A stretch of DNA of 64,000 nt from Candidatus Bathyarchaeota archaeon (lineage in GTDB: Archaea; Thermoproteota; Bathyarchaeia; Bathyarchaeales; Bathycorpusculaceae), in contig JAOZIE010000008.1 in NCBI GenBank assembly GCA_026014485.1, forward strand, positions 224,716 through 288,715, given 5' to 3'. The translations under genes were made by a program, and so were the position numbers. Positions 1-6,085 of this stretch are shown piece by piece (positions within the stretch are counted from its first letter, which is position 1; every line of letters starts with the position of its first letter). The notes beneath the pieces were generated by a model that worked only from the letters and a program-made list of their open reading frames with translations, had not been told where the DNA came from and did no database searches.

Positions 1-1916
1 CACAACAAGGATTGAAACCATTCACCTTCTCGGTTTGAAAGGATTCTTCAGCGGTCCAAAAAGGTAATCCAACACAACAAGGATTGAAACTAGTTTGCTC
101 CTGAAACCTTAACTTGTGATTGTGGGGGTCCAAAAAGGTAATCCAACACAACAAGGATTGAAACTCTTAACACCACCAAAACAAAATAAAATATCACACG
201 TCCAAAAAGGTAATCCAACACAACAAGGATTGAAACACACATTTAGGCAGGCTTTTTTATGCAAAAAACATGTCCAAAAAGGTAATCCAACACAACAAGG
301 ATTGAAACTCTTTTTGTCTCGTGAAGTATTTCCAGAGTTAAACGTCCAAAAAGGTAATCCAACACAACAAGGATTGAAACAAAATCCAAATCACTATAAA
401 TGGTTCATAAATGGAGTCCAAAAAGGTAATCCAACACAACAAGGATTGAAACTGTAGCATTTGGAATTAACGTAACGTTGCTTGGTTGTCCAAAAAGGTA
501 ATCCAACACAACAAGGATTGAAACTTTCATCTGGTGTTTTTCCAGTTAACCGCGTCGAAGTCCAAAAAGGTAATCCAACACAACAAGGATTGAAACCTTT
601 CATCCTGGCAAGGCTACCATATTCAAGTGCGCGTCCAAAAAGGTAATCCAACACAACAAGGATTGAAACATTTTTTATTTAAAGAAATGTGGGTGATTTG
701 TTCAACGTCCAAAAAGGTAATCCAACACAACAAGGATTGAAACTTCATTTTTTCTCATTCCTCACTCTTATGTCATTTTTGTCCAAAAAGGTAATCCAAC
801 ACAACAAGGATTGAAACAGCCTTTGATTTCAATTTTAATTAGTCCGCGTGCGAGTCCAAAAAGGTAATCCAACACAACAAGGATTGAAACCTGGGATACC
901 GCCTCTGCTGGGGTCGATTTCGTAGTAGGTCCAAAAAGGTAATCCAACACAACAAGGATTGAAACAACAATAACGAACTCCGAGGTTGAAACAAAATGGG
1001 AGTCCAAAAAGGTAATCCAACACAACAAGGATTGAAACAAAGTCTCAGAAAAACAGAGAGCCGCTTATATCGCCGTCCAAAAAGGTAATCCAACACAACA
1101 AGGATTGAAACTAGTATGACAGACGAAGTGGTTTCAGCACTTCTCATGTCCAAAAAGGTAATCCAACACAACAAGGATTGAAACTTAAGTCAGGTTGTTT
1201 ATGTCGCTTTAGCCATTTGTCCAAAAAGGTAATCCAACACAACAAGGATTGAAACTAATATCAGTGTGCCCAAATCCTCCAGCGGAGAACGCCACAGTCC
1301 AAAAAGGTAATCCAACACAACAAGGATTGAAACTAGTATTCAGCGATGATGTCGTGTATATTGGTACCGTCCAAAAAGGTAATCCAACACAACAAGGATT
1401 GAAACTATACGCACATGATGGAGCATACGACGAAACTAACTGTCCAAAAAGGTAATCCAACACAACAAGGATTGAAACTACGCTTCCTTAGTCTTAACAT
1501 TCACCAATAGTCTCGTCCAAAAAGGTAATCCAACACAACAAGGATTGAAACTTCCGAACAGAGAATTTTCGTTTCCGATTTAAATCTGTCCAAAAAGGTA
1601 ATCCAACACAACAAGGATTGAAACAGTTTGCTGGAACGGGAGTTTCATGGAAAAAAATCGTCCAAAAAGGTAATCCAACACAACAAGGATTGAAACTTGA
1701 TGGTAACAAAATGCAACCCAGTTTTACCAACCGTCCAAAAAGGTAATCCAACACAACAAGGATTGAAACATGATTTCCTTAAAACCACAAGCCAACGCAA
1801 CATATGTCCAAAAAGGTAATCCAACACAACAAGGATTGAAACCTTTGGTTTTGGGGGATCGTACGCACCCGACTTCAGTGTCCAAAAAGGTAATCCAACA
1901 CAACAAGGATTGAAAC
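1..1916 (+). CRISPR. CRISPR array, 26 full repeats plus one cut by the window edge
   Basis: A 37-nt direct repeat starts GTCCAAAAAGG and ends AAGGATTGAAAC. Full copies begin at 54, 128, 200, 272, 344, 416, 488, 560, 633, 707, 781, 854, 929, 1002, 1075, 1148, 1219, 1297, 1369, 1442, 1515, 1588, 1660, 1733, 1806 and 1880; an 18-nt partial copy fills 1-18. I saw no variant copy. The 26 spacers are all different, 34-38 nt except one of 41 nt (1256-1296). The ATTGAAAC end is typical of the 3' end of class 1 (type I or III) repeats, whose last 8 nt become the crRNA 5' handle. Transcription is therefore probably left to right, with the leader outside the window. Each repeat can form a 5-bp AATCC/GGATT stem with a 10-nt loop. 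No cas gene is visible, so the subtype is open. Short reading frames across the array are repeat artefacts. Confidence 0.98.
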
Positions 1917-1978
1917 TGTTGCTCGTTTCACGCTCTTCTTTAGATAGTTGCATAGCTTAAACAGTTAATTTGTTTCAG

Positions 1979-2657
1979 AAGTAGTCGTCCTAACCATTTC
2001 TACGCCGACTACTACCAAAAGGTGAAGGCTTCGACTCAGAAACGGGTAAACGATTTTTATGATGCTTTAGAAGTAGTAGAACATAGAAAAAAATCACGTT
2101 CTACTACTTCTATTTAATTAGCTCTAAGGACCACAGAAATCAAGATTGTGCCTCCAAGCAACCAAAGAAGTCGATGCAGACATTCTACGGTAGATTTCAT
2201 TATAGCAATCAATTTACCGCATAGTAACCGCAGCCAAAGCTAAACATGAGCAAAAACAAAAGAAGAAAAACCATAAAACAACCAATTTTTCTTCTTATAA
2301 TCTCGATTCTACTTTTCGGCAGAAAATCGGGGGGAGTAGCATTGAAGAAGACATATATGCAACTTGGTTTCCTTCTCCTTTTAAATTACCGATGAAGCGT
2401 TAAAAAGAAGAAGAAACAACTTTTCAGCACGCTTCTTCTTCTACTTAAATCAGTGTTAATAAGCCTAAAAGAAGAACAACAACACGCTAATTTTTCGAAC
2501 TGTTGTTGTTCTTTTGAGCCGTTTAAAGCCAAAATTAAAAGAGGAAGAAGACAATTGGTGTGGTGCAAGCTTGTCTTCTTCTTTTTTCCTTTAATTCCAA
2601 AACGCGTTCAATGGAAAAGAAAAACAGGATTTGCCAAGGAAAGCAACCGTTTTTCTT
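1979..2657. repeat. Series of long inverted repeats in gene-free DNA beside the CRISPR array
   Basis: Inverted repeats (left arm / right arm): 1980-1987/2006-2013 (8 bp); 2068-2082/2098-2112 (15 bp, perfect); 2260-2270/2286-2296 (11 bp); 2406-2415/2433-2442 (10 bp); 2472-2484/2501-2513 (13 bp); 2544-2554/2571-2581 (11 bp, extendable with G-T pairs to about 17); 2617-2625/2649-2657 (9 bp, weaker). Five of them have loops of 15-17 nt. Left arms are purine-rich (GAAGAAG-like) and right arms pyrimidine-rich, but arm sequences differ between copies. The last four are centred about 70 nt apart. Both strands carry T-rich arms, so stacked bidirectional terminators between the array and the converging minus-strand gene are one explanation; a structured RNA or a DNA-structure element are others. 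No convincing gene lies in 1917-2760. Confidence 0.75.
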
Positions 2658-2760
2658 CTACAGAAAAAGAGGCAGTAGCAAAATAAAAAAATATTTTTTC
2701 CTGCATGCTGCCTTTTATTGTTTTATCAAGAGACGGGATAACAAAGTCTAATTAGTGGAG

Positions 2761-3552
2761 CTATTTTGTCTTTGCTTGCTTGCCGAATAACTGTATAGCC
2801 AGTTCTAGTATTGATGCTTCATGTTTTTCTTCCTCAAGCTCTTCCTGAGCTAACCGTTGTAACCTAAAATTTACAGTTGCTTTGGCATTATGCTTCATAA
2901 AGGGGATGGTTTCAAAGAAAAGTCGGTTAAACTCTCGTCTATAAGCATCTTGCAACCGCTCAATCATCTCCTGATGAGTCGAAGTCTCTCCTTTTTCTCT
3001 CGTATTAAGCATGTGACGCCCTCTTCCCATCGCCTTGGCTACTAGAATCAGATTATCATACGGTGGGGGTGGGTCTTCACAAATTATATGAGCAAGAATT
3101 GCATATACCGCTGCAATTTTTGGATAACGCTCAACTAGCCACTTGCTTTCTGCAAAAATTGCATATTTAAGTAACTTCCCTTGTCGGGCAAGAAACTCAA
3201 TAATTTCCTCTTGTGCCTCTTCATCGAAGTGTTTCCAGCGTTCCTCTATCTGGCTATCAGTCAACTCCAAATCTTGCCAATAAAGTGTGCTAGCAACATA
3301 GGTTACTGTCCCTACGAAGGTAAGGTAATATTGCTTTTTTGTTTGCTTCTTTTTGTGTTTACTTTGAACGTAGGTTATGGCGCCACGTTCGACCAGCTTG
3401 TTTAGGCAATAATGTATTGTTCCATGGCTTAATTTTGGAAATTGCTTGTAGAGGTCGTATTCTGTTTTGGGGCCTTGCTCTGCTAAAAAGTATAGAATAA
3501 GCTCTGTTTTTGGGATTTCTTCTTCGCCTGCATTTGCCTCATCAGCAGCCAT
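2761..3552 (-). CDS. Winged-helix transcriptional regulator, PadR/ArsR-like N-terminus
   Basis: 263 aa. Residues about 14-80 read as a winged helix: a helix beginning TELILYFLAEQGPKTEYDL, a recognition helix around LSHGTIHYCLNKLVERGAI, then a basic wing with SKHKKKQTKKQYYLT. The rest is long, mostly helical, and matches no family I can name; it may dimerise or sense something. A TATA-like sequence on the minus strand (3586-3597) sits about 35 nt before the ATG, which fits a short-leader transcript. It is divergent from the integrase cassette that starts near 3631 and shares its upstream region, so it could regulate that cassette. This role is an inference from position only. DNA binding is well supported; the target is unknown. 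Confidence 0.7.
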   Translation of the reverse strand: MAADEANAGEEEIPKTELILYFLAEQGPKTEYDLYKQFPKLSHGTIHYCLNKLVERGAITYVQSKHKKKQTKKQYYLTFVGTVTYVASTLYWQDLELTDSQIEERWKHFDEEAQEEIIEFLARQGKLLKYAIFAESKWLVERYPKIAAVYAILAHIICEDPPPPYDNLILVAKAMGRGRHMLNTREKGETSTHQEMIERLQDAYRREFNRLFFETIPFMKHNAKATVNFRLQRLAQEELEEEKHEASILELAIQLFGKQAKTK

Positions 3553-3585
3553 ATCTCAGTAACCAATTGGGATATGCTGAAACAT

Positions 3586-3597
3586 TGCTTAAATAAT
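3586..3597 (-). promoter_or_regulatory. TATA box for the wHTH regulator
   Basis: On the minus strand ATTATTTAAGC lies about 35 nt upstream of the ATG at 3552. AT-rich boxes at this distance are typical archaeal core promoters. Confidence 0.4.
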
Positions 3598-3630
3598 TAT
3601 CGACCAATATTATCTCATTCAACCGCTGAG

Positions 3631-3909
3631 ATGAACCAAATGGGTATTCCCAAAATCGTCGAGCATAAAATAATCACAATGCGAAAACGCGACGGCTCAA
3701 CACAATACACCCTAACTCTGCCAAAAGAGTTCGCTGAAACGCTAAGAAAAGAAGGAATCGACTCCCTATACATCGTCTTCGACAGAGGACTAGGCGCATT
3801 CCCAAAGATACCTGGCTTCACAGAAAAAGCACTAACCAAGTTCATGCAAGAACACGAAGAAATCCAAAAACTCTTCATAAACACAACTGAACACACTGGA
3901 GGCAACTAA
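3631..3909 (+). CDS. AbrB/SpoVT-like swapped-hairpin protein
   Basis: About 92 aa from the ATG at 3631; a further in-frame start at 3574 would add an unconvincing 19 residues. The core, VEHKIITMRKRDGSTQYTL followed by TLPKEFAETLRKEGID, has the pattern of a SpoVT/AbrB swapped-hairpin DNA-binding domain: a beta strand, a short turn, then LPKE starting a helix. It is followed by a short helical tail. Such proteins are archaeal transcription factors or antitoxins. It is the first gene of a short plus-strand run that leads into the integrase at 4300, with 16 nt to the next gene. This arrangement suggests a regulator belonging to an integrated element. No toxin partner is recognisable next to it. 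Confidence 0.6.
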   Translation: MNQMGIPKIVEHKIITMRKRDGSTQYTLTLPKEFAETLRKEGIDSLYIVFDRGLGAFPKIPGFTEKALTKFMQEHEEIQKLFINTTEHTGGN

Positions 3910-3925
3910 GAGAGCTTATTGTCTG

Positions 3926-4303
3926 GTGGACCTATTGGGTTGTCAGGCTTTTTCTTTGGGTTCTGCCGTTTACATCCGCTACAAAGACCACGTCCTATTC
4001 AGAAACCTTGAGCAGCCCATAGAAGAAGCAATAGAAAGAGAAACCATAGGTTGGCTATCAAAAGAAACAGACGAAATCCTTCTAGTTGAACATGACAGGA
4101 CAATGCCAAATCTACAAGTGGCAAGCGGTCAATGCAATGGATTGATTATTCTTAAGAGTTGCATACTCGAAATTCAGCCGATACTCTTACAAGAAAGTTC
4201 AAAGTGGCTTTTAAATTCCCAGAACGCTAAAGGTAAAGGTGAGTTCGCGCTTCAGCCAAAGAAGCGAAAAACTCCAAAAAACGGGACGGGAGCAAATAGA
4301 TGA
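3926..4303 (+). CDS. Hypothetical protein of integrase cassette
   Basis: 125 aa from a GTG start (3926). No family recognised. The first 90 residues are of mixed alpha/beta character; the last 25 are strongly basic (KKRKTPKNGTGANR), which suggests nucleic-acid contact. Its stop overlaps the ATG of the integrase gene by 4 nt (ATGA), so the two are probably translationally coupled. This makes it a candidate accessory factor for recombination, such as a directionality or DNA-bending protein; that is inference from position. The start is uncertain because no strong ribosome-binding site is visible and there is no ATG near the beginning. Confidence 0.5.
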   Translation: MDLLGCQAFSLGSAVYIRYKDHVLFRNLEQPIEEAIERETIGWLSKETDEILLVEHDRTMPNLQVASGQCNGLIILKSCILEIQPILLQESSKWLLNSQNAKGKGEFALQPKKRKTPKNGTGANR

Positions 4304-5685
4304 GAACCGTAACCATAACGGAGAGCTCCCGAGGCCACAAACTCCAAACACCACTGACTCTCACTTTGCCAGAAGCAGAAACAGCCGCAGACAAAAAACT
4401 CCAGCAATACATAATCGATGCCCTGCTAACAAGAATGCCCAGCCTAATAACCCTAACATTCGATAACACCACAGCTATAGAACTAGCCAAACACCTACTA
4501 AGACACAGAACAGGCAGCCCACAAACACTCTACCAGTACATCTATGGTGTCCACCGCTTTTGCCTATGGACCAACTCTCAACCAGACCAACTAGTCAAAA
4601 CCTGCAAAGATGAAGACGGCGACCCCAACCCTAAAGCTCTATCACAAACCAGCCGCATGATAGACGATTTCATAGCAAACCTACAAGCCGAAAACTTAGC
4701 TCCCGGAACAATAGGCAACCACGTCAAAGGCGTCAAAGCCCTATTCCGATGCAATAACCTAAAACTCGAACTGCCCTATAGCCTAAGCAAAAGAGTAATC
4801 TACGAAGACCGAGCGCCATCACCTGAAGAACTACAGAAAACCTTAGACATCGCCGACCTGCGAGAACGAGTAATAATAACGCTCTTAGCACTCGGTGGAT
4901 TCCGCATCGGCACTCTATCTAAGCTGCAGTACCGCCATGTCAAGCGAGACCTAGAAAACGGCATAATCCCAATCCACATCCATGTCGAATCAGAAATAAC
5001 CAAAGGCAAATACCATGACTACGATACTTTCATAGGACAAGAAGCAGCCGAATACCTAAAAGCGTACTTGGATATACGCAGGCAAGGCAGCCCAACTGGC
5101 AGAAAACACCCTGAAATAATCAACGACAACTCGCCACTAATCCGAGATGGACAAAGCAACATCGTCAAACCCATAACTACTGGCAGAATCCACTCAATCA
5201 TCCACAACCTCTACGTCAAAGCAGGATTAGTAACCCAAAACCCCCGAGGAAGACGCTATGATCTAAGAGCACACAGCATACGCAAATACTTCAGAACCCA
5301 GCTAGCATCATTAGGCATCCAAACAGATTACAGCGAATATATGATGGGGCACACAATCAGCACCTACCACGACATACGCATGAAAGGCACAGAATTCCTC
5401 AGAGGCGTTTACATCTCCTCAGGGCTGAGCATAAGACCAAAAACACGACTAAACAAACTTGACGCACTCAAAGAACTAATACGCGCATGGGGTTTAAACC
5501 CTGACCAAGTTCTATCTAAAGAAGCACTACTGCAATCCAACGCAACAGTCATCGACCGAGCACAGCTTGAACAGACACAAATCATGCAGCTTACCGCCGC
5601 TCTTAAACAGCAGATGATTAAGGAAATCAAAGAGAGCCAGTTTGAAAAAAGTACAAATCCATGCCGAGGAGGATATAGCCCGTGA
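4300..5685 (+). CDS. Tyrosine recombinase / integrase adjoining tRNA-Gln
   Basis: 461 aa. The N-terminal core-binding region (about 60-160) is helical and SAM-like. The catalytic domain follows: Arg202 in GGFRIGTLSKL, Lys235 in EITKGK, His325 and Arg328 in HSIRKYFRTQ, and His351 in MMGHT. The nucleophile is Tyr356 (STYHDI) or Tyr371 (GVYISS); spacing from His351 does not decide between them. A helical tail of about 80 residues follows. The last codons lie inside the 3' end of the tRNA-Gln gene on the other strand, the usual geometry when an archaeal element integrates into a tRNA 3' end. All catalytic positions are filled, so the enzyme may be active. The gene overlaps its upstream neighbour by 4 nt. 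Confidence 0.85.
   Translation: MRTVTITESSRGHKLQTPLTLTLPEAETAADKKLQQYIIDALLTRMPSLITLTFDNTTAIELAKHLLRHRTGSPQTLYQYIYGVHRFCLWTNSQPDQLVKTCKDEDGDPNPKALSQTSRMIDDFIANLQAENLAPGTIGNHVKGVKALFRCNNLKLELPYSLSKRVIYEDRAPSPEELQKTLDIADLRERVIITLLALGGFRIGTLSKLQYRHVKRDLENGIIPIHIHVESEITKGKYHDYDTFIGQEAAEYLKAYLDIRRQGSPTGRKHPEIINDNSPLIRDGQSNIVKPITTGRIHSIIHNLYVKAGLVTQNPRGRRYDLRAHSIRKYFRTQLASLGIQTDYSEYMMGHTISTYHDIRMKGTEFLRGVYISSGLSIRPKTRLNKLDALKELIRAWGLNPDQVLSKEALLQSNATVIDRAQLEQTQIMQLTAALKQQMIKEIKESQFEKSTNPCRGGYSP
5676..5685. other. Probable attachment site: integrase 3' end overlaps tRNA-Gln 3' end
   Basis: The last 10 nt of the integrase gene are also the discriminator and the 3' acceptor strand of tRNA-Gln read on the other strand. 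Archaeal tyrosine recombinases commonly use tRNA 3' ends as att sites. I did not see a second copy of the tRNA 3' end to the left within this window, so the other end of the element, if it still exists, lies outside or has decayed. Confidence 0.5.
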
Positions 5686-5748
5686 GAGATTCGAACTCTC
5701 GTCAATGGCTCCAAAGGCCACTATGCTTGACCACTACACCAACGGGCT
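5676..5748 (-). tRNA. tRNA-Gln (anticodon TTG)
   Basis: On the minus strand the sequence folds as a full cloverleaf. The acceptor pairs AGCCCGT with ACGGGCT, the anticodon stem is GTGGC/GCCAT with loop CTTTGGA (anticodon TTG), and the T arm is GAGAG-TTCGAAT-CTCTC. The discriminator is A and CCA is not encoded. There is no intron. Confidence 0.93.
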
Positions 5749-6085
5749 TCTTTAAGCTCTCCTCAGATAATTTCTCAGCTTCCTAATAAATCTCCCATTA
5801 CGGAACCTAAAAATCTGGCTTTTAGGGTCGCGCCTTCCAGGTTGGAAGTGGGTGTGTGGCGGTGCGTTTGGGGTGTTTGTTATTGAGAAGGTTTTTAAGG
5901 TGCCTGTGTATACTTTTAGTTGTGAGTTCTGACACTGAATCTTCTTCTCTAAACCACAAACCTTTTATATAAGGTCTGTGCCTCTGCTAAGAATGCGCGG
6001 GCCGAATATACACTTTTCTCAGCCCCTATATTAAGGGAATGATGATGCTGTAGAGGTTTTGCGCAGGCGAAATGGAGTCGGAAAA
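5749..6085. promoter_or_regulatory. Gene-free region with TATA boxes upstream of TFB
   Basis: About 340 bp without a gene. On the plus strand CCTTTTATATAAGG (5961-5974) is a strong TATA element, and a second, CCCCTATATTAAGGG (6025-6039), lies closer to the TFB start. Use of the first would give a leader of roughly 90 nt, unusually long for archaea; the second would give a short one. The minus strand must hold the tRNA-Gln promoter just above 5749. Confidence 0.5.

Follow-up and report, generated by a model that had tools for sequence, protein, structure and literature searches.

An array of inverted repeats next to a CRISPR array

We analyzed a 64,000-nucleotide stretch (hereafter, the window) of contig JAOZIE010000008.1 from a Candidatus Bathyarchaeota archaeon (class Bathyarchaeia; assembly GCA_026014485.1, positions 224,716 to 288,715), referred to below as genome G000. 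The window begins with the end of a 51-repeat CRISPR array, located downstream of a cas operon. The array is followed by a series of about ten inverted repeats and then by a regulator gene whose 3' end faces the repeats. The features are as follows (no strand is assigned to the palindromes; "words" denote arm-pair types):

1..1916 (+), end of the CRISPR array (37-nt repeat), with a cas8b-7-5-3-6-1-4 type operon upstream (cas names by inspection); context, not part of the palindrome system
1980..2013, palindrome H1, AGTAGTCG / CGACTACT, stem 8, loop 18 (word A type; virus peptide EVVV..TTT)
2068..2112, palindrome H2, TAGAAGTAGTAGAAC / GTTCTACTACTTCTA, loop 15 (word B)
2188..2219, weak palindrome with G-T pairs, seen in the fold and not above the scan threshold
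2260..2296, palindrome H3, AAGAAGAAAAA / TTTTTCTTCTT, loop 15 (word E)
2301..2340, weak palindrome, seen in the fold
2400..2448, palindrome H6, core 2406-2442, AGAAGAAGAA / TTCTTCTTCT, loop 17 (word F)
2472..2513, palindrome H7, AAGAACAACAACA / TGTTGTTGTTCTT, loop 16 (word D)
2538..2587, palindrome H8, core 2544-2581, GAAGAAGACAA / TTGTCTTCTTC, loop 16 (word C)
2617..2657, palindrome H9, AAGAAAAAC / GTTTTTCTT, loop 23
2667..2716, palindrome H10, GAGGCAG.. / ..CTGCCTTT, with a bulge, seen in the fold
2761..3552 (-), winged-helix (wHTH) regulator, TFIIE-alpha/PadR-like but below Pfam cut-offs
3640..3909 (+), small AbrB-like protein (by inspection, no Pfam hit), 80% identical to the neighbor of the wHTH gene in the relative G007
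4300..5685 (+), tyrosine recombinase (Pfam PF00589, E 3.6e-10; PHROG integrase)
5676..5748 (-), tRNA gene overlapped by the 3' end of the recombinase gene

The recombinase gene runs into a tRNA gene on the other strand, which is an SSV-type arrangement, but no second copy of the tRNA end was found within about 60 kb to the left or in the window, and an SSV-type element boundary was rejected on this ground. A toxin-antitoxin-like pair (AbiEi/AbiEii by inspection) lies just upstream of the cas operon (positions 6229-7802 of L009, a separately retrieved stretch of the same genome).

To determine whether the repeats exceed chance expectation, we scanned the window for inverted repeats with a stem score ≥9. 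Six were found between 2068 and 2657 (H2, H3 and H6 to H9), and half of all such repeats in the window fall in these 0.6 kb. In 388 kb of sampled stretches of this genome the density elsewhere is 0.085 per kb, and 300 local-composition shuffles of the array gave a mean of 0.09 and at most 2 repeats, compared to the 6 observed in 0.8 kb. The region folds at z = -6.3. The start spacings of the last four strong repeats are 66, 72 and 73. The arms are purine-rich on the left and pyrimidine-rich on the right, and they also repeat with period 3: lag-3 identity is 41/51 (0.80), compared to 73/261 (0.28) in other hairpins of the genome. Aligned hairpins covary, with 12-16 double-changed cells and none as many in 500 shuffles (0/500).

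An earlier note, made from the sequence alone, had described at least six hairpins of conserved shape and differing sequence directly after the CRISPR array, and had named a shuffled-sequence control and conservation of pairing in relatives as its tests; its observation is confirmed. Its interpretation is only partly supported. It was right that pairing is conserved and that this is an unrecognized repeat class, whereas its alternatives, stacked bidirectional terminators or a multi-hairpin RNA, failed the tests described below. The position directly after the CRISPR array holds for this window but is not general in relatives, and the closeness of the repeat spacing to the CRISPR unit of about 73 nt looks like a coincidence. 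The key fact, that the arms are shared with a viral gene, could not be seen without tools.

The repeats recur across one order of Bathyarchaeia and are not CRISPR-specific

A covariance model and arm-pattern searches found the same arms, mostly between genes, across one order of Bathyarchaeia. Palindromes of word A (GTAGTAGTC..GACTACTAC) occur at 37 places in 15 of 162 genomes of the order and those of word C in 7 of 162, with zero hits for reversed-pattern controls. A search for word B in 257 Gb of named genomes hit 13 stretches, 8 of them from Candidatus Bathyarchaeota. Word E palindromes are also present in relatives, and word F occurs in arrays of the relatives G108 and G129. Loci hold either single repeats or arrays of up to about seven different words.

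In relatives, the repeats mostly lie away from CRISPR and are mostly not at array ends, and a CRISPR-trailer role was rejected on this ground. In G006, one of six congeners (G001-G006), H1- and H2-type repeats, including one with the same arms as H1 (locus L049, 1793-1828), lie between an AbiE-like toxin gene and cas6, about 9 kb upstream of the CRISPR array. In G007, a repeat lies 3' of a homolog of the window's wHTH gene with no CRISPR nearby; palindromes sit just 3' of wHTH genes on contigs G007:C23, G007:C25 and G112:C147 (G112 being another relative). The relative G086 has at least 15 loci with mosaic, conserved multi-palindrome modules between ordinary genes, so a link to defense islands is not general. 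In G129 (contig C72, locus L153, 2127-5972), an AbiE-like toxin-antitoxin pair is flanked on both sides by palindrome arrays that share words and loops.

The same arms lie inside a terS-like gene of tailed viruses

Among IMG/VR viral contigs, all 7 with the word-C palindrome and all 13 with the word-D palindrome (20 of 20) carry it inside one gene directly upstream of a large terminase (TerL), which was identified by Pfam (PF03237) and PHROG. Four of seven word-B contigs are alike; the other three look like unrelated viruses. This terS-like gene encodes an HTH, a linker and a C-terminal domain, and the palindrome encodes the linker. AlphaFold predicts an HTH (residues 8-44), a low-confidence, apparently disordered linker (53-63 below pLDDT 50) and long helices (70-136) in the C-terminal domain; the HTH resembles the GcrA DNA-binding domain. 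Position, size and architecture fit a small terminase subunit, although no family model names it: there was no Pfam hit, and only one of nine members weakly hit a terminase small subunit PHROG.

As an unbiased test, we retrieved 45 such genes by protein similarity alone. In 41 a palindrome of score ≥9 sits at the linker (43 at ≥8), compared to 28 (1.3%; 98 at ≥8) of 2176 equal windows elsewhere on the same contigs. The arms differ between viruses while pairing is kept: 19 distinct arm pairs are 93.6% paired, against a mean of 62% and at most 73.7% when partners are swapped. The linker peptide follows the arms (EVVV..TTTS, REEDK..LSSS, KEQQQ..CCCS), so that the nucleic acid and not the peptide is conserved. 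Location inside a reading frame explains the period-3 arms and the loop lengths, which step mostly by three. Among 28 distinct viral stems there are 338 Watson-Crick pairs, no G.U and 3 A.C, a pattern that does not look like an RNA helix and is as for double-stranded DNA. In two viral contigs (L200, 1803-2285, and L203, 6449-6892) a word-D HTH plus palindrome is joined to a TerL resembling that of word-C viruses, suggesting that the terS N-terminal module is exchanged between viruses.

In the window, H7 and H8 carry the word-D and word-C arms exactly, whereas H1 and H2 are of the related word A/B type. The closest viral match of H2 is the terS palindrome of the G006 provirus (L104; local score 30 against a background of 13). 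No clear viral counterpart was found for H9, H10 or the weak units. Outside the arms, H7 and H8 are no more similar to terS than chance (36-161 of 200 shuffles as good) and H2 is only marginally so (10/200); descent of the window units from the sampled terS genes is thus not supported by loop and flank similarity. No terS HMM hit was seen at E<0.05 in positions 1-6000 of the window, where the units are about 70 nt with no HTH or TerL remains. In contrast, single palindromes do sit in recognizable, degenerate terS fragments in G021, G018, G129 and palsa_986.

All six congeners carry at least one terS-bearing provirus, while G000 has none. This does not amount to mutual exclusion of provirus and array, since G001, G005, G006 and G007 have both; their arrays contain the arm word, or most of it, of a provirus in the same genome.

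A tentative model: a bank of viral packaging-type sites

Our analysis establishes the sharing of arms with the terS-like gene, the location of the viral repeat at one fixed place in the linker, the covariation of its arms, and, in the window, intact arms whose loops and flanks have no detectable terS similarity. Intact arms without terS context suggest that the arms themselves are kept, as expected of recognition half-sites rather than decayed gene debris, although unsampled viruses with other loops remain possible. Everything beyond this is inferred, including binding by TerS, a role in packaging and any benefit to the host. We favor, tentatively and with less than even confidence, a double-stranded DNA site probably bound by the HTH of the TerS-like protein as a packaging-initiation (pac) site. 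A pac site inside terS is known in the archaeal virus phiH1 (PMC6210493). In this view the chromosomal array would be a bank of such sites for several viruses that engages incoming packaging machinery, either as a decoy that misdirects TerS/TerL or as packaging-start sites through which the neighboring CRISPR/toxin-antitoxin/integrase DNA is transduced; the data do not choose between these uses. Arm words correlate equally with the HTH and the C-terminal domain (partial r 0.33 and 0.29), so recognition by the HTH is not singled out, and about ten chromosomal sites may be too few to titrate TerS against many virus genomes. A broader version, that Bathyarchaeia chromosomes keep curated arrays of the packaging-initiation palindromes of many viruses as a virus-matched DNA library that is not CRISPR, serving as decoys or as multi-helper packaging signals that let viruses transduce neighboring CRISPR and toxin-antitoxin islands, is possible but less likely than not.

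The main rival is passive debris, in which repeated provirus integration and deletion left short terS fragments with no function in the host. The terS fragments around single palindromes in four genomes and the proviruses of all congeners fit this view, but the window's arms are perfect over 10-15 bp with loops and flanks at chance similarity, its units lack HTH or TerL remains, and G086 holds its modules between ordinary genes; we consider debris less likely than the favored model. A dispersing extragenic palindrome (REP/BIME- or MITE-like) that also sits in terS is less likely still: mosaic modules in G086, duplicated arrays in G129 and mostly intergenic locations are consistent with it, but the arms are many different words with no common consensus, the viral site is fixed at one codon region, unlike insertions, and no transposase was noticed near the loci examined (no RAYT noticed in the ORF lists of 30+ loci).

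An RNA-level function (a multi-hairpin RNA, processing sites or bidirectional terminators at the end of the CRISPR array) is likewise unlikely. It could draw on the strong fold, the pyrimidine-rich right arms and some G.U pairs in the host set. However, the viral stems lack G.U pairs, no Rfam family reached its gathering threshold, a search for intrinsic terminators (GC-rich stem, short loop, T-run) returned 0 sites, and the repeats occur inside coding regions and in convergent, tandem and divergent contexts alike. Least likely are recombination sites, either integron attC-like or used by nearby tyrosine recombinases. These enzymes lie near some arrays, the array is a series of folded hairpins, and arrays flank cargo in G129; nevertheless, the units are spaced 66-73 bp with no gene cassettes between them, no GTTRRRY cores were seen by eye, no IntI-type integrase was noted (the window's enzyme is a general Phage_integrase), the sites are shared with virus terS, and no second att copy of the tRNA end was found within about 60 kb to the left or in the window.

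Relation to known systems

Like the phiH1 pac site, the viral element is a DNA element inside the small terminase gene, and array units share its arms in this lineage; it differs in being an inverted repeat with virus-specific arms, copies of several words of which lie together in host chromosomes, and its packaging function is inferred. Phage satellites (SaPI/PICI, PLE) also place a virus packaging-type signal in chromosomal DNA, and in the window, G007 and G112 the repeats lie near an integrase and regulators. The window has an integrase at a tRNA and pac-like sites, but no satellite boundaries or att repeats were found, many different words occur in one array, and some arrays lie among housekeeping genes. 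REP/BIME arrays share the mosaic, extragenic arrangement at many loci per genome, but here there is no common arm consensus and the arms are shared with a virus gene. Units of about 70 nt next to a CRISPR array and a link to viruses recall CRISPR; however, each unit is a palindrome, a repeat search found no shared repeat in 1979-2720, and most relatives' arrays are not near CRISPR. CRISPR spacers compared with the retrieved loci gave no convincing match. Archaeal integrons (PMC9668308) are also series of folded sites in archaeal MAGs, but with cassettes, which are absent here, where the arms are tied to terS.

The repeats thus lack those defining features of CRISPR, attC, REP/BIME, terminators and Rfam families that were tested, and we regard the class as new while making no firm claim on function. 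The papers on Bathyarchaeia viruses that we could search describe neither the viral repeat nor the chromosomal arrays. The repeat inside the small-terminase-like gene provides a candidate packaging site for a large group of uncultured archaeal tailed viruses, the arrays suggest a new layer of virus-host interaction (packaging decoy or packaging hijack) beside CRISPR and toxin-antitoxin genes, and the arms could be used to link viruses to hosts.

Two further loci show the palindrome in unusual surroundings. In palsa_986 (L179, 5205-6319), tandem HTH repeats are joined by palindrome linkers and end in a piece of the ABC-type ATPase found downstream of TerL in the viruses, representing either a rearranged provirus or an unusual gene. 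In the genome G056 (contig C5, L054, 4292-4381; also L055 and L058), a terS-type palindrome (TTGTTGTTGTTG..CAACAACAACAA) lies about 16 nt from a solitary CRISPR-DR7-like repeat, followed by a capsid-like gene fragment, possibly a provirus remnant with a mini-CRISPR unit.
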